Source: Pagrus major (taxonomy: Eukaryota > Chordata > Actinopteri > Spariformes > Sparidae). Taken from it: a stretch of DNA of 64,000 bases. The stretch lies in contig NC_133221.1 in assembly GCF_040436345.1 (NCBI RefSeq), positions 17,419,165 through 17,483,164 on the forward strand, given 5' to 3'. Position 1 is the first letter of the stretch. Every line of letters begins with the position of its first letter. Under the pieces are notes generated by a model, which did no database searches, was not told the DNA's origin, and worked only from the letters and a program-made list of their open reading frames with translations. Below are positions 18,901 through 63,651 of the stretch, piece by piece. A program made the translations under genes and the position numbers.

Positions 18901-21011
18901 ATGGCCAGCATAGATGTGTTGACAACAAGGTTTTACTCGTATGATAAAATGTACCTTCAGGAGTCGCGTGAACAAAGCTTTGTGGACTGGCCATTTAGAG
19001 AGGAATGTAACTGCACACCAGAAAAGGTAAGAAGGCTGTAAAGTCTTGAGAACACTTTTTGAATTATAAAATACTTAAAGAAAAAAGGCACCAGCTACTT
19101 TGACAGGGGTGAGACGGGGTCAGCAGGAGGTCAGACATGTGTGGGATGTGTCAGACAGCTCTCTTGCCCTTTAGAAATACAGCCTACTTTACAATTATTC
19201 ACACAATGTTTGACTATAGCTGAATAAAAATAATTATAAGTAAACTTCACCTTGTTTACACAGCCATTTTATACCACAGGCTTTAATCCAAGGCTCTGAC
19301 AGCTTGTGATGTGCTCAAGCAGGTGCCAGATTCAGTTTCATTGCATCAGGTGTCCAGTTCCCACCATCATCTTGTCATGATGGATGAGCTGCTGACACCT
19401 CACTTAATGAGCAACACTCTCTGCCATGTTACCAACTCTTAAACCACCCAAAGAGATCATCATCTGGTTTCAGTGACGCTAATCCTCCTGCAGCGAGGCA
19501 TCTGTTGTTCTTGGTTTGCACTTGTCATCTTTGTAGCCGAGTTTTTATTTATTTACAGTAGTTGGAAAGATACGCTAAAGGCATTGAGGCATGTGTTGCT
19601 GTTTATTTTGTCTTTTACAGATGGCTAAGGCTGGGTTTGTCCACTGCCCTAGTCAGAACGAGCCAGATGTTGCCTGCTGTTTTTTCTGTCTGATCGAGCT
19701 GGAGGGCTGGGAGCCAGATGATGATCCCTGGTAAGAAAAGCAAAGCAGCCCCCTCAGGCCTTTACCTTACCAGTCTCTATAAAGCTTTGAGTCACTGAAG
19801 AATATTATGGCTGTTTGGGTTCAATATAAATTTCAACACAATCCAGTAAAAAAACAATTGGTGAGGCTTTGAACACATGTACAAAGAACCACAAAAATCA
19901 TGAAATTCAGCTCTCAGGGCTAGTGCATTAAGTATTTGGAAACCTTGCTATAGGATTTAACAAGGTCTCATGAATTTAATAGAAGTTTTCTTTTTCTTCC
20001 AGAAAATCCATTACATGATCTTGGAAAAGTCCTGAATTCTACTATTGTTTTTTTGTATTTTATCATTTGTTTTGATCCACATTAACTGTGCCCTAAAGCA
20101 CAGCTACTCTTCCTGGGTTTCACACATTACAAAGAAATACACATGCATATAAAAACATTTAAAAACATAATGTATTACAGTGCATGCACATACAGCATAT
20201 TATCACATTGGAAACAAAAAACGATTTTCCTAATTTGCTTTTAAATATTGATTTCTGTGTTAATTTAGTCAATGACCGAGGCAAATAATCCCATTGTAAA
20301 GTTTTGATTGCTCTATATACTGTGCCCAGTTCAGACAGAAGCGCATGCTATTTGTGTTTTTGTCATGTGAGAATGTGCTGTGAGTAGAGTATTTAATTAG
20401 GAGTTTAGTTAGATTAGATGTAAAGTATTTGTTGGCATCTCCTTACCATAGCTGGAACCACAGAGTTGGCATGGACGCACCCAAAAGATAACATGGCTGC
20501 CACATAAAGTTGATCTCATTACAAAACTCCACTTAGATGTAACTAGTACATCTGTTTCTTAATCTCAAACAGCATAATGCTAAAACCTCTTTTGTTGTTA
20601 TATGTTGATTTTGCATAACTTTGTATCCTTTTATTAAGATGGATTACGCAGTGTTGCATACATTATTGTGTCTGCTCTTCTGTGTTTTCTCTGTCCAGGT
20701 CTGAACATATGAAACGCTCCCCTAACTGTGGATTCCTAACCATGAAGAAAGACTTCACCGAGCTCACTGTGGCTGAATTTTATCTCATGGAAAAGGAAAG
20801 GCTGAAGGTCTTTTATGTAAGTGTCTCCGCCAGCTGAAATTGTGTGCAATGAAGTGATGTTTGGCTGGAATACTTAAGAAGGGATTGTTCCACATTCTGC
20901 TTTTTCTTTTTTTTTTCTTAGAGAAGGGTTTGTCATAAGAAGATGGCATGTTTGCGGGATGACATAGACCAGACGCTTGAACACCTTAAATCTCAGTTGG
21001 AGTCTATTTGA
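18901..21011 (+). CDS. birc5: Survivin-like BIR protein (baculoviral IAP repeat-containing 5), 4 exons
   Basis: Coding exons are 18901-19026, 19621-19730, 20699-20816 and 20922-21011, all with GT-AG junctions, giving 147 aa (human survivin has 142). Exons 2 and 3 are 110 and 118 nt, the lengths known in human BIRC5. A single BIR domain spans about residues 10-95, with zinc ligands Cys62, Cys65, His82 and Cys89 in the expected spacing and the signature [11 protein letters not shown]. The tail is a charged helix (about 100-147), the part that in survivin joins borealin and INCENP in the chromosomal passenger complex at centromeres and the midbody. Here it is diverged and has extra cysteines. 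By family it is a mitotic regulator with a debated anti-apoptotic role. Teleosts have two survivin genes; which one this is cannot be settled here. Confidence 0.93.
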
Positions 21012-21073: not shown

Positions 21074-24000
21074 GTTTTGTGGAATGACAGTTTGTTTGTA
21101 GTATTGTCTTTAACCACAAGATGGGGCTTTTGCTCCAAAGCTGCAGTTTCCCTATGTCACACACTTTCTGGAGTTTTCTAGTCTCAACACTCAATCCTTC
21201 ACAAAGGCGATCTGAAATGAAAGCGCACATTGAGCAGGATTACAATGTGGGCTATATTCCCTCTTTTCAACCAAATACTTACCATTTTCCTGAACGTGCC
21301 ACCATCCCTACCAGCCCTTTTCAAAACTTGACCCTGGACAGATGGCCTGAAGCCCCTCCCCTTCAATACCAACTGTTGCCCCAGTAACATCTGTTACATA
21401 TAGGGGGACAGTGTCCACTGAGAGGGCTCACCAGGACACTTGCTTAACCTTGTAAGGAGAGCTGAGATTTAGGAAACGCTGGAGGATGCTGCAGCAGACA
21501 ATGGAAATTGTGCAAAAGGTGCTCATGCAGTAAACACTCCAAAAAGGCTCTGTCACACTGTAATGCTTCACTGCTCTCCTTTAGCATCTCAAGAACGAAG
21601 GTTTAACAGTAATAATAATAAGTTGGACTAAAGTCTTGAGATTTTTAGTGTCTTGTATGAGCAGAAACAGAGGATGTTGGGCTCAGTTTGTGTCTGTCTG
21701 ATGGGAGGCCTGTCTGGATGGAGTGCAGGATTAAAAGATGCTATCCCTTCTCCAACCTTCCACTGTTCTGGATTAATGTCTAATGTAACACTCTGGCCAC
21801 TGAGCCCAGATCAGCTGCTTAATTCTCCTTTATCCGCTCACTGCAGAGCAAATTGAAGAGGGAATATTTTTAGCCAAAAAAGTAATATACGCATGGGTGA
21901 TGTAACATTTCCGATGAAACTGTTATTCTTCCATTTTTCAGGGTGTTTTATTTTTTTTTGTCTTAAATCGATGCTATTCCGAGATACTTCATCGTCATAA
22001 TCATATTTTGCTCTAGTGGCTGGAAGTATTTATTTTAGGTACATGTAGCTATCTTGGTTGGAGAGGAACATCCACTGAAAAACATTTTTACTAATGAGAT
22101 GTTAGTTTAGGTAAGTGGGGTGGCATTTGCATAAATACACAGATTATAAGGAGCCTGTTTACAGTAATTGCTAATGTAACTCTAATCAGGGTTTATACCC
22201 ACATCCCGTGTAAATCCACTTATTTCTGTGTGCTCCAGAAAATAAACAAAGAGAATGGTATGGCGTGACTTCTGTCCATGAGCGGCACAGATGTGGTAGA
22301 TGGGCTTATCTGTGTGGGAATGGTGCAAAACTGTTGATTTGATTGGATCTCAGCTGGGGTGGGGGCTTTGCCTTCATATGTTAACCCCTCAACCCAGATT
22401 TATAATAACTATAACCCCATTAAAATGTGTTTAAAATGAGTCATTAAGCTAATAGGAACCTGCATTGCACCACTACACTTAGATTCTCCTCCTGATCTAA
22501 TTAAAACGCTGTGACAAAGGGTGCACCGGTGGCGTCCGCTGCAGTTTTTCTAATTAATGAGTTTGTGCTAAACAAACTGTAAACAGCGAGTGTAGCAGAT
22601 GGACAAACGGACAGATGTTACCAACAGAAAGTTTACAACCTGAGCTTTCCATCAGGCCCCATCTGTTGCTCTTGCGCCCGGTACCTCCCTCTACCCTCCT
22701 CCAATGCTTCTCCTCGCTCCTCATCAGCATCTATCACCTCTCCCCTGATGCTCCACACACGAATGACATCAGCATTTAGCCTCTCGCCTGACCTGGTTTA
22801 ACCCTTAATAAACAAAGGCTAAATGAACGTCATATCACATCTGAGCACTAACGATTCAAAAAACATACGTCTTTCTCGCTGTAAGGCTTCTCAGCTTCCT
22901 GAAAGCACTTGTGAGAAAACACAAAGCAGGATAAATGATTATAAGGCTGGCATGTGCACAAAGAGGCCTGCACTGCACAGTTATCCAGCATCTCTCCAAG
23001 TTACACTCTCCCTCGCATTATAATTAAGAAGAATCTAAAACCCCCTTTTCAGCTTTTATTCCACTCCCTCCTCCACCTCTATAATGTTCTCCCACGTCTC
23101 TGGCAGGAGGGCATGCTGGCTGCTCGCTCGCTCGCTCTCTGACACCACGGCCCTCCTACCTTGGCTGTTTTTTGTGCCCTCTTCCAAAGGGACCTCCATC
23201 TGTCCCCTACACTCAGCCCATTGTGGTGTCCCAAAGCCCAGCAACTTCCACAATGCAGTGGGCGTGCAGGGAAGGGGGGGGCAGGGTAAACACGACAGCA
23301 TCCAGATCCCATTAGAAGCTCTTTAACTCCTACACCCTAATACTCTCGGAGAACTCTGGGAGGAGAAGGCCCACCCCTCGTCCTCGTGCACAATGTCACC
23401 TTTTACATCCACTCCCATAGGTAATGAGTTCCCAACTGCCCTCTTTCTTTGCCTCCCATGTACAACTCCTTTTTTCTTTCTTTTCTTTGGTCATTATATT
23501 AATATTAACTTTCTTTACATGTTGTGCAGAAGGAACGGTGGTGTTTTATTAAGAGATGTTGTCATAGAGAACAAATCTTTGGGTCAGAAAAAGTTAAAGT
23601 TTTATTCATTTCTATTTAATCACTTCCACCATGTTGACCATGACCAACCCAATCATCATTTTTAATTCCCCCTCCTCCTCCTCTTCGGTCCCTACATCTT
23701 CTCATAACGCCAGCCTTGCCATCTTCCATTGTTTTCCTCTGTCTTTTCCCACATCTCTCTCTCCATCCATCTCCTCGCTCTTTCTTCCACCAGCTGCTCC
23801 TCTAAGTCTAGGGCGTCTATTTTTCAGGGTGCTCCACCTCTCAACCTGGGCACTCGTATCCCCGTGCTCCCCACAGAGACGTGTGTGTGTGCATGTGTGT
23901 GCATGCGCATTGTGGCCCAAGAGGAGGGGGGGATCACTGTGTTCGCCCCAGCTTAAAGGCAGAGGGATTACCGGCACACAGACACTGATTAAAGCCTTCC

Positions 24001-28238: not shown

Positions 28239-29321
28239 TCAGAGGGTGCCCATCTGAGAGGTGATCAGGTGAGAGGGAGCGAAGGAGTCAAAGGCCACAT
28301 CCAGGGGCAGCTCATAGCGTGAAGCCTGAAACAGTGGGTGGCCCTGAGGCCCCCCTGGTAGGCCGCCAGTCGTGGAAGTGGGGTAATGGTGGGACGAGAG
28401 GTAGTGGGCATGGTGGCCGGGGTGGGGTGTGTAATTCCTCTCTGAGTCATGGGGAGAAGGCTCTTGCTTCAGGGCAAAGTTGCCACTGATGCTCAGAGGG
28501 GGAGTGAGGGGGCCGTCATATGGTGGGGTGCCGCTGCTGCACTCGTTAGGGGAGGGGTTGTCATACACCGGCCCCTTGTATCCCTTCATATGGAGGAGGT
28601 GGGATGCCTCCAGGGAGCCATAGGGAGGGCTGGGAAGGCCTGGAGATGGGTAGCTGAGGGGATGGCCAGCCTGAACCCCCATACCACCGACCCCCGGGCC
28701 TCCACACTTGTCCTCCTGCTTGTTGAGCATCATCGGACTGGGTCCCAGCTGCAAGCAGCCGGCCACAAGGTTACTGGTGGGCTGAGACAGACCTTTACAC
28801 AGCATCTCCACAAAGCCATGGCTCTCTGGGGACTGGCCACTCTCAAGCACCTCCGACAGAGCCCAGATGTAGTTGCGGGCCAGCCTTAGAGTCTCAATCT
28901 TCGACAGCTTCTGTGTCTTGGAGTAGCAGGGCATCACTCTGCGAAGACTTTCCAGGGCATCATTCAGCCCGTGCATGCGTGAACGTTCTCTGGCGTTGGC
29001 CTTGACTCGCCTGGCACGAAACCTCTCCTGTCTTGCTTTGGTCATCTTCTTCTTCTTGGGGCCTCTCCTTTTGGGAGCGTTTTCCCCATTTGGTCCAATC
29101 TCCTCCTCCTCTTCCTCCTCCTCCTCCTCCTCCTCTTCCTCCATATCCTCACTGCCCAGCTCTGTGCAGGAGTGGATTCGGCTCCCTAAGGTCAGGCGCC
29201 CCCTCATCTCTGGGCTTTGCTCTCCATCCTGAGAGCTGCCGTCCTCCTCCTCCTCCAGCCAGCCAAGGGAGCTCACCAGCTCACTCATATCGCCGCTCTT
29301 TCCGAATGGTTTGGTCATCAT
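28239..29321 (-). CDS. neurod4: Neurogenic differentiation factor 4 (bHLH transcription factor)
   Basis: The whole coding sequence is in one exon: 360 aa starting [16 protein letters not shown]. The start is chosen because a splice acceptor (CTTCAG, cut before 29327) lies six bases upstream; the open frame beyond it is intronic. Residues 61-74 are a run of 14 Glu, followed by the basic [14 protein letters not shown] block and a bHLH domain (about 105-157) with [16 protein letters not shown] and [18 protein letters not shown]. After it come the NeuroD-family segments [20 protein letters not shown] and [26 protein letters not shown] and the opening sequence fit NeuroD4 (NeuroM/Ath3) rather than NeuroD1, 2 or 6. 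The protein is a nuclear E-box activator that drives neuronal and retinal differentiation. Human NEUROD4 has 331 aa. Confidence 0.95.
29100..29141 (-). repeat. neurod4: GAG/GAA tract encoding poly-Glu in neurod4
   Basis: Fourteen glutamate codons, mostly GAG with two GAA-type interruptions, stand upstream of the bHLH domain. Acidic tracts here are usual in the NeuroD family, but their length varies. The tract is a likely site of length polymorphism. Confidence 0.9.
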
Positions 29322-40165: not shown

Positions 40166-40342
40166 ATGGCTCCTAAAAGAGAACCCTCCATTAAAAAGTC
40201 TCCTTCACCAGTGGGTCAACCCAGACTGGGTCCTCCGTACCCCTGCCTCCCTACGACTCCTGTGGCTCCAAAATCGGCTCCAGAGCAGAAACCGAGGATG
40301 CTGCGCCCCTCGGATACACCGTTTGACCCAAGTACTTTGGAG
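40166..40342 (+). CDS. myl6: Long-form first coding exon of myosin essential light chain (MYL6B/MLC1-type N-terminal extension)
   Basis: The exon starts at an ATG in strong context (G at -3 and +4) and encodes 59 residues beginning MAPKREPSIKKSPSP and ending TPFDPSTLE. It then meets a consensus donor (GAG/GTGAGT) in phase 0. A MAPK start, Lys-rich head and Pro/Ala-rich linker are the mark of the long essential light chains (MYL1, MYL3, MYL4, MYL6B), whose extension contacts actin. PFDPSTLE corresponds to the FDP segment before the first EF-hand region in MYL4. In-frame joining to the myl6 exons gives 209 aa; human MYL6B has 208. No other light-chain exons lie nearby, so it most likely belongs to the myl6 gene downstream. 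Confidence 0.8.
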
Positions 40343-42697
40343 GTGAGTGGAGTCACTACTTCTTAAGACAAAGCTAATGTGGGGCACTCAGAAATTAGGG
40401 CTACGTTTACAAATCTTATTCTAATAATCAATCTTATTTCATGAATAGTTTTTGTCAATAAGATCCATAAAAACATAACATGCTGCTGATTTATAGAGTA
40501 GCTGTCTAAGTTTTTGATGCTAATAAGCTATCAGCTTCAATGTGGAATACGACGGAATGTAAAGCAAAGAAATGGGGCACTGAAAGTGAGGCTGTCAGTC
40601 AGTCAGTGGCCTCCTTAGGGACAAACAGGCTGTTTCTTGTCACAGTATGTACTATTTCTTTCATCGGGAAGGTCCCACAAATTAATATCCATCTCCTTCT
40701 GACCTACACACAGATTGTGTGATCGTTTCAAGAAGCAAAAATAACAAAATGTAAGTCCAAACTCAAAGAGAGGACATAGATTTTTCCACTGGATTAAAAA
40801 TTTAGTGAGCTTTGACTTGACCCATTTTTCAAAACTGAAAACTGGCTACACAGAGAATAGACCTCCACAGAGTCCCGTGATGTGGATAACAGCTTGTGAG
40901 ATAAGTCACAGATAGAACCTGACAAACCTGAGGCACACCATTGATTCATCATGTCACAGATATAGTACAGTAACCTTTGTCTTGGTTGTGTCTTATGTTG
41001 TCTGCTTATACAAAATAAAACGTTTAAGGCAACAAGAGTTTGAGGTTTTATAGAAAATGTGTGATTATTTTATAGTCTGTCCAGCAGCAAATTCTGTACT
41101 CCATTATTAACAATATTCTGCATGAAGTATTTATGGAGAGTAGCATGTTATGGCAGAGTAGATGGTGCTGCAGAGTCTGTTCAGAATTATAGTTTCATTT
41201 TTCAGCTTCCTCTGACGCGTGTCTTTGTCGGAGCTCAATAATAAATTTGGATGCATCTTTGGTAATATGTTAAAAGGAACAAATGATGCTACTGGATTTT
41301 GAATCACCCCATTTCTTCAACGCTCTGTGAGAAAAGAATTGTGCATTTTCTTTAAAGTATAGGTTAGAGGTCAGAGTACTGGATTATACAGACAGAAAAT
41401 GTTCATGGAAGTTAGAGAAGCTCATTTAAAACTCTTTTCTTTTGGTAAACTTTGTGATTGATATCAGGCATTTATGTAAGATTTCCTGAATACCGACTGA
41501 AATAAATAATTGTATTAATTTATTCAATTAGTAAATATAAGATATCAGTAAATATAGTAATTTAGTAAAAAGATAAGTAATAATAATGACTTTTATTTAT
41601 ATAGCGCCTTTAGAAATAAGAGTTCAAGCCAGAGAAGGATGCCTTGTCTAAGAAGAAGACAAAAACACAAGATGCAAAACACAAAATGTCAATATGAATG
41701 ATTAGTAAAGGAATGATGGTGATAAAACAGGCAAAATCACAAAAGCAATGCAAATAAAGAGATTAAGAAAAGAATGAAATAAATAAAGGATGATACGAAG
41801 ATGACATCAGTAGGTACCTTGATCAATGAAAACATGCTAACATTACATAAGTCCACACCATTACAGTGTTCTCATGTCAAAGGCAGGCATAGACCAATTA
41901 GACAAAACACTTTAATGTAAAGAAATGTTGAAAAAACTCAATATTTCAAACTATATTGATGCCCACATTAGACTTTGTCCTAAAGTGCTTTGGCTTTGTC
42001 GGTGCTTTAGCTTTGCTGCCATCCTCATGTGCTTAAGTGTTACACTGTGTGTCCTGCATGATTTTATAGATTGAGACTGTCCCATTTAGCTTGCGAGGAT
42101 ATGTGGGCCATGTTAAGATATCCGCTTCTGCTCACAGTGGGACCACAGACAAGGCAGGGGGGCCAGAGCTCCCGCTGAGCGCAGAGAGCACTTTAGCCAG
42201 GCTGTTAAGAGATGTGGCATGAGTCCATGGTCTAACAGGCCTGTATTAATCCATCGTTCCTGCACGGCCAGACGCTCACATCCTTAATGCAAAGCCTAGC
42301 AAAGTCATTCACTGCAGTCATGCATTTATTTAGGCAAGTGGAGTCAAGATTACCAAAGGCAAACACACAGCACAAAGAGACAAACATCCTTTTAAACATC
42401 TTAAAAATGCGTGTCTTAATCACAACACACATCAGTTAACATACAGTAGGACCCATCGACTCGATGATTACATTGTGAGGTTAAGGGCGGGCTGCTTAAA
42501 CACATCTTATTTTAAAGATCCCCCTCCAAACATGTATTGCAACATAAAATCCAGTACTTGGAACATTAGTTTATGTCAGAGAAAATGTTCAATTACCTTG
42601 TTAAAAGGTCAAATACATTGAGATGCAAATATTAGCATTTAAAGAATGGAACTACTTGACACAAGATGTGTAAAGCTTCAGCTACAATGCTCTAGAG

Positions 42698-42943
42698 CAG
42701 GGGTGCCCAAACTCTTATGATTGGAGGACCAAAACTGAAAGTTAATGGAGGGCCACGGGCCAAGAGCAAGCACCTATTATAAAGTATTGAATTGTTAAGA
42801 TAGCACAAACATTTATTTATGTTATAATTTCTTACTTATTCTTCTTTTCTTTTCTTGTTTTTTTAGCTAGAAACATCTGGCAGCCATATTGAACCTCATT
42901 GTGGGCCAACTTTGGTCCACAGTCCTCACTTTGGACAGCCCTG
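42698..42943. mobile_element. hAT-type MITE with 8-bp target duplication
   Basis: The ends CAGGGGTGCCCAAACT and (minus strand) CAGGGCTGTCCAAAGT are inverted repeats. Both sides carry the identical 8-mer CTCTAGAG (42690-42697 and 42944-42951), the length and NTCTAGAN form known for hAT insertions. The element is 246 bases without coding capacity. It lies in the first intron of the long myl6 form. Confidence 0.9.
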
Positions 42944-43287
42944 CTCTAGAGAAACTAGAGTCTGGTCAATTTTGTATGGGCATTGTAGGCTTCAAATTTC
43001 CCACTGACACTAGTTGCAAATCATGCTTGTAGGTACATACCTTAAACTCAGATTTAAGGTGAGCACAAGAACAGCTTCTAGATGGGGGCTTTGAGTATTT
43101 TAATCCCTTAATAATTGATATAAGGGCAGGCTGGTCAGAATAAGTGAATTAAATTCAGCTCTTAAATTCAGCTTAAAGTTACTTATTCCATGTATCAGTC
43201 ACCTCAAACATAGAATAAATAGTTTAAGGACTTTTAAGGCATATAAGTCATGTAGTGTAAATCACACACCATGCCTAGATGTTCATT

Positions 43288-43334
43288 CCTATATATGGAG
43301 CGTGGCTGTTGTACGTCGTGCGTGCATTACGTCA
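43288..43334 (+). promoter_or_regulatory. myl6: Probable promoter elements of the short myl6 form
   Basis: CCTATATATGG (43288-43298) is one base longer than a consensus CArG box and also a possible TATA box. TTACGTCA (43327-43334) is a CRE/ATF-like site. Both lie 100-150 bases before the short-form ATG. SRF control would suit an actomyosin gene. Confidence 0.4.
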
Positions 43335-43436
43335 TGACGCACTCCCGCTCGGGTTTTCTCACCCTGCCCTTCTCTGAGAGCCGTCACACATTCTTTGGCT
43401 TGCCGACGCCTCGGACACACCTCAGCCAACACAGCT

Positions 43437-46400
43437 ATGGTGGGTTTTTTTTTTTGTTCCACTCCACTTAACCAGCATTATTCACGTTTTTGTGTAATTG
43501 AATTATTGTTTCAAGATTCTCGTTTAGCTTTCCAAAGACGTTGAATTGAGTTTGAATATCTGAATTGGCTCTGTGGTCGCTAGCGGAAGTGCAACTTTTG
43601 AGAAGCTAACGTTAGCTTACACGAAAGATAAAGTTAACCCCACTATATCCTTATTAATGTGTCCAAAGTACCTGCGAGTACACCAGTCATTGCTGTATGT
43701 GCTGTAGTCGGGTAATATCTGGCTTGAGTTGATCTAACAAAGTGAAAAATATGTTTTAAAGCGTTTGATGTTAACCCAAGTTAGCTTTACGCTGCGCTGC
43801 AAAGGGAACCATTTTCATGTCGCTTAATTTCTCTTTGAACAGTCTGAATTCACGGAAGATCAAATCCTTGGTGAGTTTTGATTTTGTGTTGTGACATTTT
43901 CCAGATCTCGCTTGTTGTGCATGCTTTCATTCTTGCTTGGTTGAGAAGACACTTTGCCCTGTATCTCCACTATCACCCTGCTCTGTGCTCGCCTGTCATA
44001 GCAGTCGTGGTTGTAGGCTAGGTTTTCCTTCCTTATTTCCGTACTGTTTCACCACTTTCCACTTGCAACTGCTTGTCCTTTCCAGATTGAATTTAACGTG
44101 GATCAAATTCATGGTAAGTCAGCGAAATGGGGACCGCCTTAGCACAAAAACTGATGGCTATCTCCGAGTGTTTAGGGTGTGATCTGCATGTTGGTTTTGG
44201 AGTAACCTAAACTGTAATAAATGTGAATGAGAGTCGCTTTGCACTGTTGTTTGGTACGTCCAAATCAGTCATATGTTGCATATACAACGTAATAGTACTT
44301 ACCAGCTTTGACCGTGTGTTTCAGTGTTTTTGTAACGTTATGTGGTCAATCATGCATTAGCAGTACTTACCCGTTCTCATAAGACAGTGGTCATTCCTGG
44401 ATGTGTCCGTTTGCCATAAACTTTGCCTGTTATCTTCCAAGCGGTCCATCTCCACGAGTGTGCCCTTTTTTGGTGCTTGATACAGTGGTGGATGGTTTGT
44501 GTCCTAGGGCTGGTTTGTTTAATCATCGTTGACATAATAGGCTGCAGCTACTCTCACTCTCCTCCTACTTTCCTCCACTCCTCTAATACCAAATATGGTG
44601 TTGGGAAAAAGTGCTCACAGGCTACAAGGGAAGAGGCACATTCCTCAGAACAGGAAAAACTCCACAACAGTGCCTGAGCTTTTTTGGGGAATAGCCTTGT
44701 CCCACAACATTGGGAACAGACCACTGCCCGGATATTGTGTAATCCAACTCCACTTCTCCCTGATAACAAGATCTCAGCTAAGCTTTTTTTGTTTGGCTGT
44801 TGAGCCTAACAACTACAATGGTTGATGTTAGATCAAAGCTACATTAATCAACCTTTTGATCAATGACAAGATTGCATCTTTGCTGTCAGTTGATTAAGCA
44901 TCAATACTCAATATATGGTAATGTGAATGCCTTAGAGGGCTCAGGTAGCTGACAGCTGTATTGACTTTTCAGCAGTGCTGTAAAATATTGATGTCAAAGC
45001 TGTGTTGGCAAACAGTAGGGATGTCAGATTAAGCATTTGAAAGTTTTTGAAAGCAAATTTTTCAAGTTTACCGCAAGACCATGCTGCCAGATAGACTCTA
45101 CCAGACGCTAAATCTGGTAAAACTAATAACTTAAACCAAGTGAAATACTTACACACTAATCTTTTGTTTGCTATCATAAAATGAGTAATAAAATATTGTT
45201 AGAGATGACCTGACATGACATGAATCTGTTACAGACAAGTCGCAAAACAGTATAAGTTGAGTCACATTTGAGTTTTTTGTTTGATGCTTTGGCAGGCGAT
45301 GGACTGAAAAGTTATTTCCTGTTTGTGAGTTTTCTCAGTTTAAAGCCTCCTGACAGTTGCAATAGCAGAAAAAAATTGTTGATTCATTACGTTTGTGGTT
45401 AGGGTTATCAAGTGAAATTACTGAACATTTTGTTGGTTGTGGCATTTCACTCAAGATTTGTTTTTCCAAGCATAAAGATCAAGGGCAACTTTTAGAATTG
45501 TTTGGGGGTCAAAAATACAGCCACTGTAATGTAATTGTTTAAAATACAAGTTAACTGTAAATAAACTTATCTTGTTGACTTTTAGGTCACTTTAGTGAGT
45601 GCTTCTGTTGACTATTTAAAGATTTTTATCTGTTGTTGATGTTCAGTGGAAAATCTGATTATTTCTATTTAGACATACAGCCTTTAGGATGGTCTCATTT
45701 TCTTCAAGATAATAAATCTCTTTAAAAAGCTACATTATCTTTATCTTCAGAGTTTTAAAAACAGTCTTTAAAACTTACTCTATCCATTTCTGGTTGTTCT
45801 AAAGCTTTATTTATGCTATGGCATGCATAGTTACTACTACACTTATATGCCTTCACCTGTAGTTCCGAAATATCAAAATATAATTACATATCGATTCTGA
45901 ATATTTGAAAAAGTTTTAATACTCATTTTCCACAGTATCAATAGGCCTGTACCAGCTGAGCTTTCTCGCTCTCTCTTCTCTCACACAGCAAGTTGACACA
46001 TGCACTGCTGCAGTGCCCACATAGATCTGCCTCCTTCCGCTCTTCTGACTATGCTCAGTAGTAAATTAGTTTAGATATTGTTCTTGATGTTATGCTTAAC
46101 ACACAGTACACAAGCCTTTATAAATTTATCTTTTTATAAAAATCTAAATTTTATGTCCTCATATTGTATCAATACTTTTTATGTTTTGTATCAAAATGAG
46201 AAATTCCACTGTCATGACAACACTATTTGATGCTTTTGGAAACTTAATCCATGTGTTTGCATGTTCAAACTACAACAAGGATGACAGAGCATGTAGTATT
46301 GCACTGATAAAGTTGTTTAACCATGTTTTTGTTGATTTGTTGTGGACAAAATCCAAAACTGACCAGATGACTGACATAAACAAAGTATTTGTTGAATTGG

Positions 46401-49400
46401 GGAAATTAGCTGGATGTTTGCAATGTTAACCACAGAGTACAGAGAGCAAACTGTTTTTAGTGATTGCTTCCACTCTACCATGCAAATGGATTAAGGTTGG
46501 GTCGATGTAAAAAATTCAAACTGGTTTGGTATCCAGCCAACTGGAACTTTGAATCGGTAGTACTAAATTTACCCATCGGTGTTGCATGTGACTCAGTGGC
46601 TTCCTCTCACTATGTCCCACTGTGAAAAATTACTTTTTGATTTTCCACAACGTCTTACTGCTAAAAATTGTCAGTTTAGTCCGTTTACGTAAAGTCAAAC
46701 CGGTTGACAGCTCATACACATGACTGGATCACTAAAACCGGAAGCCAACCAACCCTAAATTGTAAATAGTAATGACATATTGATTTTAAAAATTCACTTT
46801 TCAGCTTTGAAATGTAAGTTTTGAGCGTTTGAGCAAAGCATGCCTGTGCAACATGAGTTTGGGGGTACAATTTGGCAGACATGTATTATCCTGGATAGGC
46901 CAGCCAGAGATATCTCACCTATAGGGGCCTTTAAGACCTACCCGGGTTAGTCATTCTGGTGCTTTGTGCTCTGCCTGCTCAGATAACCGCTTAATCACTT
47001 GTCATGATCTGTGCCTTCTCTAGTCTGCTTGTTCTCACTTTCTTTCCCATCTGTCTAGCTCTATTGTTTCATCTATTGTCATTTCACTTCTTATCTCCAT
47101 ATAATTCCTACATACATGTCTGCTTGTCTCTTCACCTCTGCTTAATTCATACCCATTCTCTAATTCGTCATGTGTTTGTGTATCCTGCAGAGTTTAAGGA
47201 GGCATTCCTGCTGTTCGACAGGACAGGAGATGGGAAGATCAGCTTCAGCCAGTGTGGGGACGTCATGCGGGCCCTGGGACAGAACCCTGTCAACGCTGAG
47301 GTGCTCAAAGTCCTGGGCAACCCCAAGGCTGAGGGTGAGAGGAAAACTAGGAGATATATGTCTTTAATGTGCATAAAACATGTAATTGTGCTGAAAAACA
47401 CTAACTTTCTCTCATAATCTTTCAGTGATAATGTTGCACTGCCCAGAGACTTGCCTCCTATAATTTGTTTTTCTTATCTTTTTGCAGAGATGAACCACAA
47501 GATGCTAGACTTTGAGCAGTTCCTGCCCATGTTCCAGGCCATCGCTAAAAATAAAGATCAGGGCTCCATGGAGGATTTTGTGGAGGGATTGCGTGTCTTT
47601 GACAAGGAGGGCAACGGCACAGTAATGGGAGCAGAGCTCCGTCACGTCCTCACCACGTTAGGCAAGTTCCATATTTATCATCCGTGAATGAACATATCTG
47701 GATAGGTGGACTATTTTTGGGTTGATTTCTTTTATACACACCATTTACATTTTTCACTGACAGCACAGTACTGTAATCGCCACAATGGACAGTATCAATG
47801 CAGAACTAATTTACTGAAAACTTGATGTGCATGTTTGTAAATTCATTTGGCACTGTGAGGTATCTATTTTATAGGATTATCATCATCATTTCCTGTATTA
47901 TTCATTTTTCTGTATGTGTAAAATCCTTTTTTTTCCCACCCATGTAATGTCACCCATGTAATGTGAAAACGTTCCATTTACAGGTGAGAAAATGACAGAG
48001 GAGGAAGTGGAGACGCTCTTGGCGGGGCACGAAGATGCAAATGGCTGCATCAATTATGAAGGTGAGAGTGAAGAAGAAACAAGAACAAAATGGGATACTT
48101 GCTATAATCAGGCTGATGATGTGTGACAATGTTGTTGCTGTAAACCTGCAAAGTATTCAATTTTAACCATCACACCCAAGAAACCTTGGTCATGAATTAC
48201 ACTTTATGTGTTCTGTGTTTATTTATGTGTGTAAAGTTTTGTTCTTTAGGGGTGTGACGATTCTGAAACTGAGATTGAAGCAAGTTGTGTTCTCAAGTTG
48301 TGGTCCTGCAAATACTGTGAAAAAAGACACTTCTCCCCTCAAACCGACCTGCTCCTCATCTCAAAACCTGAGATTTCTCTGTCAGTCTGTGGTAAACAGC
48401 TGCCTGTTTTTGTCACCTGACTGCATGCTACATGGTGCATTTAGGGGCTGCTCGTAAAGTACAAACAAGTCCATTCACATCCCATGTTTCAAATACTTTT
48501 TGCTGGTTTTGACAGGTTTTAGGTTTTTTATTTATTTTGTTTTCTAATTTAATTTGTCAAGATTATTTATGAAAATGTATGTAAACCGACTCTTGGATTT
48601 GGAGAATCGTTGCACCCCTAAAGTCCGAGTTATCTAAAGGCAATTATTGAAAGCCCCCCTTAACTATTAAACTTGATTTAGTCTTGCGATAAGGTGGGTG
48701 TCTATTTACGTTACTGTGTACTGTCTAGTATGTGTTTTCTTTACACTTGTGGACTGTTTTAAGAGGCCATGTATAAATGTCAAATGCTGACAGTGTGTTA
48801 ACTGTTCTTCCTCCGCAGCATTTGTCCGCCACATCATGTCGGGCTGAGGGCTGGTACGGGCATTGGGTATACAATGAGATGGCACCTCCAGGCTTTCCTG
48901 CGTTTTAGTTGTGAAATAATCCACTCCCATTATGCCACCCTAACACTAATCAACTGTAGTGGTGCCCTTCATATTGGCAAACAGGAACAATGTGCCGTTG
49001 CAAAGTAGATTTGACCCGTAGGTGTCTGTGGGAAAGCCTAGCGGTTCCTCTCATCTTTAGTCCTGAGGCTTTGACCCATGTGTAGCCTCCCTGCTGTTCT
49101 GTCTCTCTCCTGCAGCCCTCTGTCTTGGCCCCTGGCTGCAGCATGCCCCTCTGCATGTGTCTGGGACTCCCCTCAGTTTATGAGGGGATATGGTGGACAC
49201 ACAGGGAAGTGACTGGTCTCATTCAGAGAAAGTCTGGTGGCCACTGTCGAATTATCTGATGGGTGTGGAGGTCACAATGCCGGCTCTTCTAATCTCATTT
49301 GCATGTCATTGGTGCTATTAAAATAAGCTTTTTTCCTCTGTTGGTGTTAGAGGTGTTGCTCTTTTCATAGACAGATCAAACAGTTTCTTACATTGTAGAC

Positions 49401-49943
49401 ATGTTTTACATTCAAGTACAGCCACCAGCTTTGGGAGAGTGGACCAGTCCCTTTTTCTACTAACCAGAGAATTGCAATGAGTTGCTCTTGTGCTGATTGT
49501 TTTCTCCTCTGTACTGATGGAAGCTGAGTTTCAGCTGGCCACTCTCTGACTGGAGTGTAGCTCCCCTTGATCTTCTCCCCTTTTCTCTGCTTCTCAACTA
49601 GAGGAAAGCAAACAGCGAGGATGGCTTCTCTAACCAGCTCTTCTTGGATTGTAGACACGGCCAAATGCTTTGGCTGAATAGGAGATAGAGATGATTACCT
49701 CACCTCTTTCTCTCATACCTTCCTAAACCCTTCTTTTTCCTATGGATGAGCAGAATATAGGGGATCTGCCTCCAAATACAGCACCTCCCACCCAGCCTAA
49801 CCAAAGCTGGATGAGGAGGGGGAGCCTTGGCGCCATATGCTGTAGTTGGAGGGGGTCTCTGCCAAGATCTCGACCATGAATCTAACATTTGTCTCTTTCT
49901 CGCCTCTTTTACAGAACTCGTCAGGATGGTCATGAACGGGTGA
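43437..49943 (+). CDS. myl6: Myosin essential light chain 6 (MLC17), short form
   Basis: Exons are 43437-43439 (ATG only), 43843-43870, 47191-47334, 47488-47661, 47984-48061, then either 48819-48847 or 49915-49943. Either form has 151 aa, as in human MYL6, beginning [22 protein letters not shown]-hand-like repeats run from [17 protein letters not shown], through [18 protein letters not shown], to the last exons. The protein binds the first IQ motif of non-muscle and smooth-muscle myosin II heavy chains in the cytoplasm and stabilises the lever arm; it does not regulate by phosphorylation. A lone ATG first exon followed by a 28-nt exon also fits mammalian MYL6 (recalled). Intron 4 is GC-AG (47662-47983). 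The coding start is fixed by splicing. Confidence 0.92.
43843..43870 (+). CDS. myl6: myl6 exon 2a (short-form type)
   Basis: A 28-nt exon between AG and GTGAGT encodes SEFTEDQIL plus the first base of Glu. It starts in phase 0 and matches the SMALL-form MYL6 head (CDFTEDQ in human). It is paired with a duplicate at 44086-44113. Confidence 0.9.
44086..44113 (+). CDS. myl6: myl6 exon 2b, putative mutually exclusive long-form exon
   Basis: A second 28-nt segment lies between a pyrimidine-rich acceptor (TTTCCAG) and a near-perfect donor (GTAAGT), 215 bases after exon 2a. It encodes IEFNVDQIH plus the first base of Glu, has the same phase and matches exon 2a at 19 of 28 bases. IEFN.DQ is the form found in MYL6B (IEFNKDQLEE), not in MYL6. 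It therefore probably follows the long-form first exon, giving [24 protein letters not shown]. Using both 2a and 2b would shift the frame, so they must be alternatives. Not a chance match, given phase, length, splice sites and homology together. Confidence 0.82.
46491..46758. mobile_element. Possible MITE in myl6 intron
   Basis: It starts AAGGTTGGGTCGATG and ends CCAACCAACCCTAAA, with weakly inverted ends. The internal text (TTCAAACTGGTTTGGTATCC) resembles a common fish repeat. No target duplication is clear. Confidence 0.35.
48249..48618. mobile_element. TA-flanked MITE in myl6 intron 5
   Basis: The ends GGGGTGTGACGATTC and (minus strand) GGGGTGCAACGATTC are inverted repeats with two mismatches, and TA lies on both sides. 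It is 370 bases long and ends 200 bases before alternative exon 6. Confidence 0.75.
48819..48847 (+). CDS. myl6: myl6 alternative exon 6 (non-muscle C-terminus)
   Basis: After the acceptor CTCCGCAG the exon completes an Ala codon and encodes AFVRHIMSG and stop, matching the AFVRHILSG end of human non-muscle MYL6. The exon can continue past the stop to a donor at TGG/GTATAC (48866). Inclusion would leave exon 7 as 3' UTR. Confidence 0.88.
49915..49943 (+). CDS. myl6: myl6 exon 7 (smooth-muscle C-terminus)
   Basis: After CTTTTACAG the exon completes a Glu codon and encodes ELVRMVMNG and stop, matching the ELVRMVLNG end of human smooth-muscle MYL6. It is coding only when exon 6 is skipped, and otherwise is 3' UTR. 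Confidence 0.88.

Positions 49944-53940: not shown

Positions 53941-63651
<9,711 letters not shown>

Follow-up and report, generated by a model that had tools for sequence, protein, structure and literature searches.

In human, MYL6B (208 aa) and MYL6 are encoded by separate tandem genes, while MYL1 provides a long and a short light chain from a single gene with the exon order long start, short start, short-specific exon, long-specific exon and common exons. The myl6 locus of Pagrus major raises the question of whether one fish gene of the MYL1 design can encode both a MYL6B-like and a MYL6-like chain, and whether such a gene is older than the human pair. The stretch of DNA analysed, referred to here as the window, covers 64 kb (C7:17419165-17483164) of the 786-Mb, 25-contig assembly GCF_040436345.1. 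Exons were cut by script after the stretch had been read and their coordinates are positions in the window (Table 1). The locus is most probably the fish counterpart of human MYL6/MYL6B, kept as one two-start gene, with tandem copying having come later in the tetrapods.

Exon structure and predicted products

The exons of the window gene lie in the order L1-S1-S2-L2; downstream of these are three exons common to both forms and a choice of two coding ends. The MYL1-style layout described in an earlier note on this DNA, with a 59-aa MAPK-type phase-0 exon, an ATG-only exon, two 28-nt exons and shared exons, was confirmed by exon cutting, as were the exon coordinates. In structure, the MAPK-start first exon ending in phase 0 and the downstream ATG-only exon, 3.1 kb from L1, are those of a MYL1-type two-start gene. 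The small exons likewise follow the MYL1 type, in that the short-type S2 precedes the long-type L2 and only one is usable by frame. The L1 peptide starts MAPKREPSIKKSP and finishes TPFDPSTLE, and the L1 donor is GAG/gtgagt. The alternative coding end at 48819-48847 is an addition to the earlier picture, which had 49915-49943 as the last exon; this c6a exon probably continues beyond its stop codon. Both MYL6-type ends, of the AFVRHILSG and ELVRMVLxG types, are therefore present in the window gene. The c4 donor at window position 47662 reads TTAG/gcaagt, with GT in the C6 counterpart. No tRNAs were found.

Table 1. Features of the window and of related loci in the Pagrus major assembly. Positions without a contig name are positions in the window.
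Feature	Position	Strand	Remarks
L1, long-form first coding exon	40166..40342	+	177 nt, 59 aa, MAPK-type, phase 0 end
S1, short-form start exon, ATG only	43437..43439	+	donor ATG/gtgggt
S2, short-form 28-nt exon	43843..43870	+	SEFTEDQIL, AG/GT borders
L2, long-form 28-nt exon	44086..44113	+	IEFNVDQIH, acceptor ccag, donor gtaagt
c3, shared EF-hand exon	47191..47334	+	exon cutting, frame, Pfam
c4, shared EF-hand exon	47488..47661	+	GC donor instead of GT
c5, shared exon	47984..48061	+	exon cutting, frame
c6a, alternative coding end	48819..48847	+	AFVRHIMSG + stop; compare human MYL6 AFVRHILSG
c6b, alternative coding end	49915..49943	+	ELVRMVMNG + stop; compare chicken MYL6 ELVRMVLSG
NeuroD-type bHLH gene, one open frame	28302-29318	-	Pfam Neuro_bHLH 1.7e-41
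C1q-domain protein	62902-63651	-	Pfam C1q 3.4e-18
NeuroD-type bHLH gene, second copy	C6:21336328-21337164	-	about 20 kb upstream of C6 myl6
Intronless light-chain gene	C12:18069523-18070128	-	full-length, MYL4-like sequence (TPTGEMKIT)
Intronless light-chain gene	C5:41597067-41597657	-	full-length, MYL4-like sequence (TPTGEMKIT)

Exactly one of the two 28-nt exons is usable, because joining both breaks the frame, with stops after 11 or 69 residues, and joining neither also breaks it, with stops after 50 or 108 residues. Either 28-nt exon alone keeps the frame, and L1 and S1 are each in frame with S2 or L2. Since the frame permits all four combinations of start and 28-nt exon, we infer the pairing of L1 with L2 and of S1 with S2 from the paralogs and known proteins, in which the first residue of the 28-nt exon is I, L or V in long forms and S, C or T in short forms. 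Joined in this way in silico, the exons reproduced the 209-aa (L1+L2) and 151-aa (S1+S2) products that had been predicted earlier. Either end is possible for each, so the two alternative ends double the predicted products to four. The human chains are of 208 and 151 aa and come from two tandem genes, whereas C7 has one gene. The IEFN-DQ of fish L2 matches human MYL6B and the FTEDQ of fish S2 matches human MYL6.

From an upstream promoter, L1 would be spliced to L2 and on to the shared EF-hand exons to give a MYL6B-like chain with a Lys/Pro-rich N-terminal extension. From a downstream promoter, S1 would be joined to S2 and the same shared exons to give a MYL6-like chain lacking this extension. 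Two promoters 3.1 kb apart would then choose between the 209-aa and 151-aa chains. In a motif scan run without a chance control, a MEF2-like site (39646) and E-boxes (39993, 40068 and 40114) were seen before L1, and a CArG-like site (43288), a MCAT-like site (43284) and a CRE half-site (43329) before S1. The N-terminal extension of MYL1 is stated to bind F-actin in an excerpt of PMC10777021.

The 28-nt exons and the long first exon

S2 and L2 are identical at 19 of 28 bases. A 28-nt exon motif with splice borders has exactly two matches on the + strand of the 64-kb window, which are S2 and L2. It has no match on the - strand, nor in any of 40 dinucleotide-shuffled copies of the + strand. The exon pair is not expected by chance. 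Counterparts of S2 are SDFTEDQIM in the C6 copy and DFTEDQ in human MYL6, while those of L2 are IEFSADQID (C9), LEFTPEQLE (C21) and IEFNKDQLE (human MYL6B). The ATG-only design of S1 is also readable at C6, as ATG/gtaaga at 21356236.

L1 has a single genome match by DNA search and no Pfam match. When it was compared with the first exons of paralogs, the observed score was reached by 0/2000 shuffles for C21, 23/2000 for C12, 13/2000 for C5 and 18/2000 for C9, with z = 4.4 for C21 and a modest z of 2.5 to 2.8 for the other three. The middle part of L1 is poorly conserved. The two paralogs without introns, on C12 and C5, are in register with L1+L2 (22 residues of the latter aligned against FDPKSITLEYSADQIEEFKEAF).

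The weak conservation of L1, together with a C6 copy that manages without L1 and L2, could mean that these exons are unused remains and that the 151-aa product alone is made. This is improbable, as L1 has an uninterrupted frame and a good donor and L2 keeps exactly 28 nt, its frame and both splice borders; two remnants would be unlikely to stay intact together. On its predicted exons, the gene is a real, well-formed two-start myl6 of known architecture.

Light-chain genes elsewhere in the genome

The search of the genome with the 209-aa fish protein gave 31 matches at E<=0.01, and 62 candidates were scored. Seven loci are light-chain-like, on C7 (the window), C6, C9, C24, C21, C12 and C5 (41.6 Mb), the rest being weaker EF-hand genes. 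These remaining matches are at most 53% identical with the fish query or 56% with a human MYL6B query, an example being that on C15, which is calmodulin-like by sequence.

The C6 locus is a second myl6, with a core 94% identical to that of C7, and of the two 28-nt exons it carries S2 alone. Neither L2 nor a recognisable L1 was found in 29 kb of C6, 21.5 kb of which lie upstream of its single 28-nt exon. The best C6 segment scores 39 against L1, below the shuffled-L1 mean of 40.3, and 178 of 300 shuffles reach 39. Three C6 candidates for L1 found with a loose MAPK pattern score 13 to 25 against it, under the best random segments. The c6a end of C6 is shortened (C6:21359107-21359129), reading AFIRHII and a stop, and its c6b is intact (ELVRMVMSG); therefore the two myl6 copies differ also at the 3' end.

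A long-only myl1-type gene (L2 only) is located on C9 and a short-only gene (S2 only) on C24, with cores 78% identical. No second 28-nt exon of full score was found at either, and one loose C24 candidate for L1, from the MAPK pattern, is unlike it by eye. The long-form gene on C21 belongs to the MYL3/MYL4 group, of which it is the sole multi-exon member seen in the searched genome. Near 19984370 on the - strand this MYL3-like gene has a one-base shift within an EF-hand exon, which is either an assembly error or damage to the gene. The genes on C12 and C5 are long-form and group with MYL3/MYL4 (97/95 in the 13-row tree described below). Since their coding parts are without introns, this suggests that they are copies of a long-form mRNA, and they may be retrogenes that replaced a parent gene.

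Search for a separate myl6b

A check of the genome for a separate myl6b, proposed in the earlier note, used the long fish protein and human MYL6B as queries. No such gene was seen among the 31 matches to the 209-aa fish query at E<=0.01, nor among the 48 matches at E<=1 (57 scored) to human MYL6B, which added no light-chain locus. The human query missed L1 of the window even at E<=1, so L1 is far diverged from the human MYL6B first exon. A lone diverged long first exon could escape in this way; the shared exons would not. No complete separate gene owning the long exon was found in the searched genome.

That the single locus is a product of collapsed or misjoined copies in the assembly is scarcely credible. 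The one-base shift on C21 does occur in the same assembly, but the window is continuous without N, L1 has its single genome match and no leftover 6B-type exons were found elsewhere in the genome searches.

Identity and neighbourhood of the gene

Human MYL6 shares 85% identity with the fish C7 core; human MYL6B and rat MYL1 each share 80%. Identity alone is not decisive, because rat MYL1 is as near as MYL6B. The C7 and C6 genes group with MYL6 and MYL6B with moderate support (81/84 in an 11-row tree and 72/84 in the 13-row tree).

The neighbours of MYL6 in human 12q13 are ESYT1, SMARCC2 and NEUROD4, with SMARCC2 adjoining MYL6. Upstream of both fish myl6 genes, on the - strand, is a NeuroD-type bHLH gene, the two copies being 60.7% identical over 295 aa; judging by position, we take the window copy to be probably neurod4. 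Because they share this upstream neighbour, C6 and C7 represent a duplicated block, for which the teleost genome duplication is the simplest origin. A SMARCC domain is located about 6 kb from the C6 myl6 and none is next to that of C7 (3 matches in all). ESYT-type domains are within 0.5 Mb of both copies, with the 16 matches spread over five chromosomes. The bHLH, SMARCC and ESYT neighbours expected of a MYL6 orthologue from human 12q13 are thus found about the fish genes.

The C1q-domain protein of the window also has a collagen-like stretch, which falls below the Pfam cut-off, and judged by eye it begins with a membrane-spanning segment. A synteny analysis excerpted from PMC3679108 names as neighbours a C1q-like gene and MYL6B. 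Elsewhere in the window, a survivin-like identity for 20619-20834 was rejected, there being no Pfam match, and the sole Pfam match of 21088-21384 is below the cut-off.

Age of the two-start state

The 13-row tree has 134 columns, with one row of provisional sequence, several forks drawn open and one fish genome represented. In the best such tree human MYL6B joins human and chicken MYL6 with weak support (75/86), this being 88/90 in the 11-row tree, and human and chicken MYL6 are grouped at 93/93. The MYL6/MYL6B split is therefore best placed, without certainty, in the tetrapod lineage, earlier than the divergence of chicken and human. Gene conversion between the tandem human genes could mimic this grouping. 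A grouping of fish myl6 with MYL6B is not rejected (p-AU 0.078). A myl6b listed for Anolis in PMC4139331 agrees by name only with a split before that of chicken and human.

The earlier note had suggested that mammals later split the two forms into two genes. A later split fits the best tree, which puts it before the chicken-human split (93/93) rather than within mammals; a grouping of human MYL6 with MYL6B alone, as a mammal-only split would give, is not rejected (p-AU 0.075). Its proposal that the fish locus keeps the pre-duplication state holds in so far as both sets of starts lie at one locus, the searched genome showed no separate myl6b and the interleaved order argues against fusion. A duplication before the fish-tetrapod split is nevertheless not rejected (p-AU 0.079).

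Such an early date would have MYL6B and MYL6 already separate before fish and tetrapods parted, with fish then losing MYL6B and fish myl6 keeping its own older long exons. The tree in which fish myl6 and MYL6 are held together is just 4.69 log units worse than the best, and orthologues of both MYL6 and MYL6B are listed for corals in an excerpt of PMC11203038; a coral MYL6B, judged by its ortholog label only, would make MYL6B old. We consider this early split unlikely, since it requires an extra gene loss and the best trees join MYL6B with tetrapod MYL6. Under it only the timing of the split would change, and the fish gene would still be one with two starts.

The exon order bears on whether the locus could instead have arisen in fish by secondary fusion of tandem MYL6B and MYL6 genes, which would also bring both exon sets into one place. 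Deletion of the DNA between such genes would leave the order L1-L2-S1-S2 or remove S1/S2. The interleaved order is not that of one deletion in a MYL6B-MYL6 tandem, because L2 comes after S2 and directly before the shared exons. The observed L1-S1-S2-L2 would need extra rearrangements, yet matches the MYL1 order, and a fusion is very improbable. Because the order equals that of MYL1 and one deletion in a tandem pair cannot make it, a retained ancestral two-start gene is the best reading.

The retained two-start arrangement was probably inherited from a common ancestor of MYL1, MYL3, MYL4 and MYL6. In tetrapods a later tandem duplication of the gene would have left the long start in MYL6B and the short start in MYL6. 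We infer both the use of the two promoters and this ancestral polarity from sequence. One two-start ancestor is the simplest account for the light-chain family. Vertebrate essential light chains are regarded as having arisen from a single gene once tunicates had split off (PMC7397655), and the separation of MYL1, MYL4 and MYL6 as older than that of fish and tetrapods (PMC2235844).

Relation to MYL1 and other divided genes

MYL1 of mammals and birds, like fish myl6, is one gene with long and short first exons, two small alternative exons and shared EF-hand exons. Unlike MYL1, the fish gene is a smooth/non-muscle (MYL6) locus; it also has two alternative coding ends, and its long exon is of 59 aa. 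Both MYL1 products come from one gene according to excerpts of PMC10777021 and PMC10039937. The excerpt of the latter also states that in mammals a single gene makes both fast-muscle alkali chains, which teleosts encode at different loci, and that shark cDNAs suggest a single MYL1-type gene. The teleost myl1/mylz3-type genes on C9 and C24 have the same long and short designs as fish myl6, with the long (C9) and short (C24) forms on different chromosomes, in agreement with that excerpt. Because C9 and C24 fit this account, it is fairly likely that the two lineages split opposite genes, teleosts having divided MYL1 and kept MYL6 joined (as on C7 here) and tetrapods having split MYL6 and kept MYL1 joined.

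A division of alternative exons between copies after duplication was reportedly described by Altschmied and colleagues in 2002 (cited in PMC1890551), going by the title, for teleost mitfa/mitfb. This is a different gene, and there it is the teleosts that have two genes and the tetrapods one. No description of a two-start fish myl6 or of opposite splits was found in the open-licence literature, among the matches listed (titles and abstract starts). The long fish transcript may well already be present in genome annotations.

If the opposite splits are true, they are two independent natural experiments in alternative promoters becoming separate genes. In the fish gene, the likely ancestor of the human MYL6/MYL6B pair would be preserved in living form. 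The gene would help to date and explain the origin of MYL6B, and would provide a clean test of how duplication divides alternative promoters. Knocking out this fish myl6 would eliminate the predicted long light chain of the locus along with the short one.
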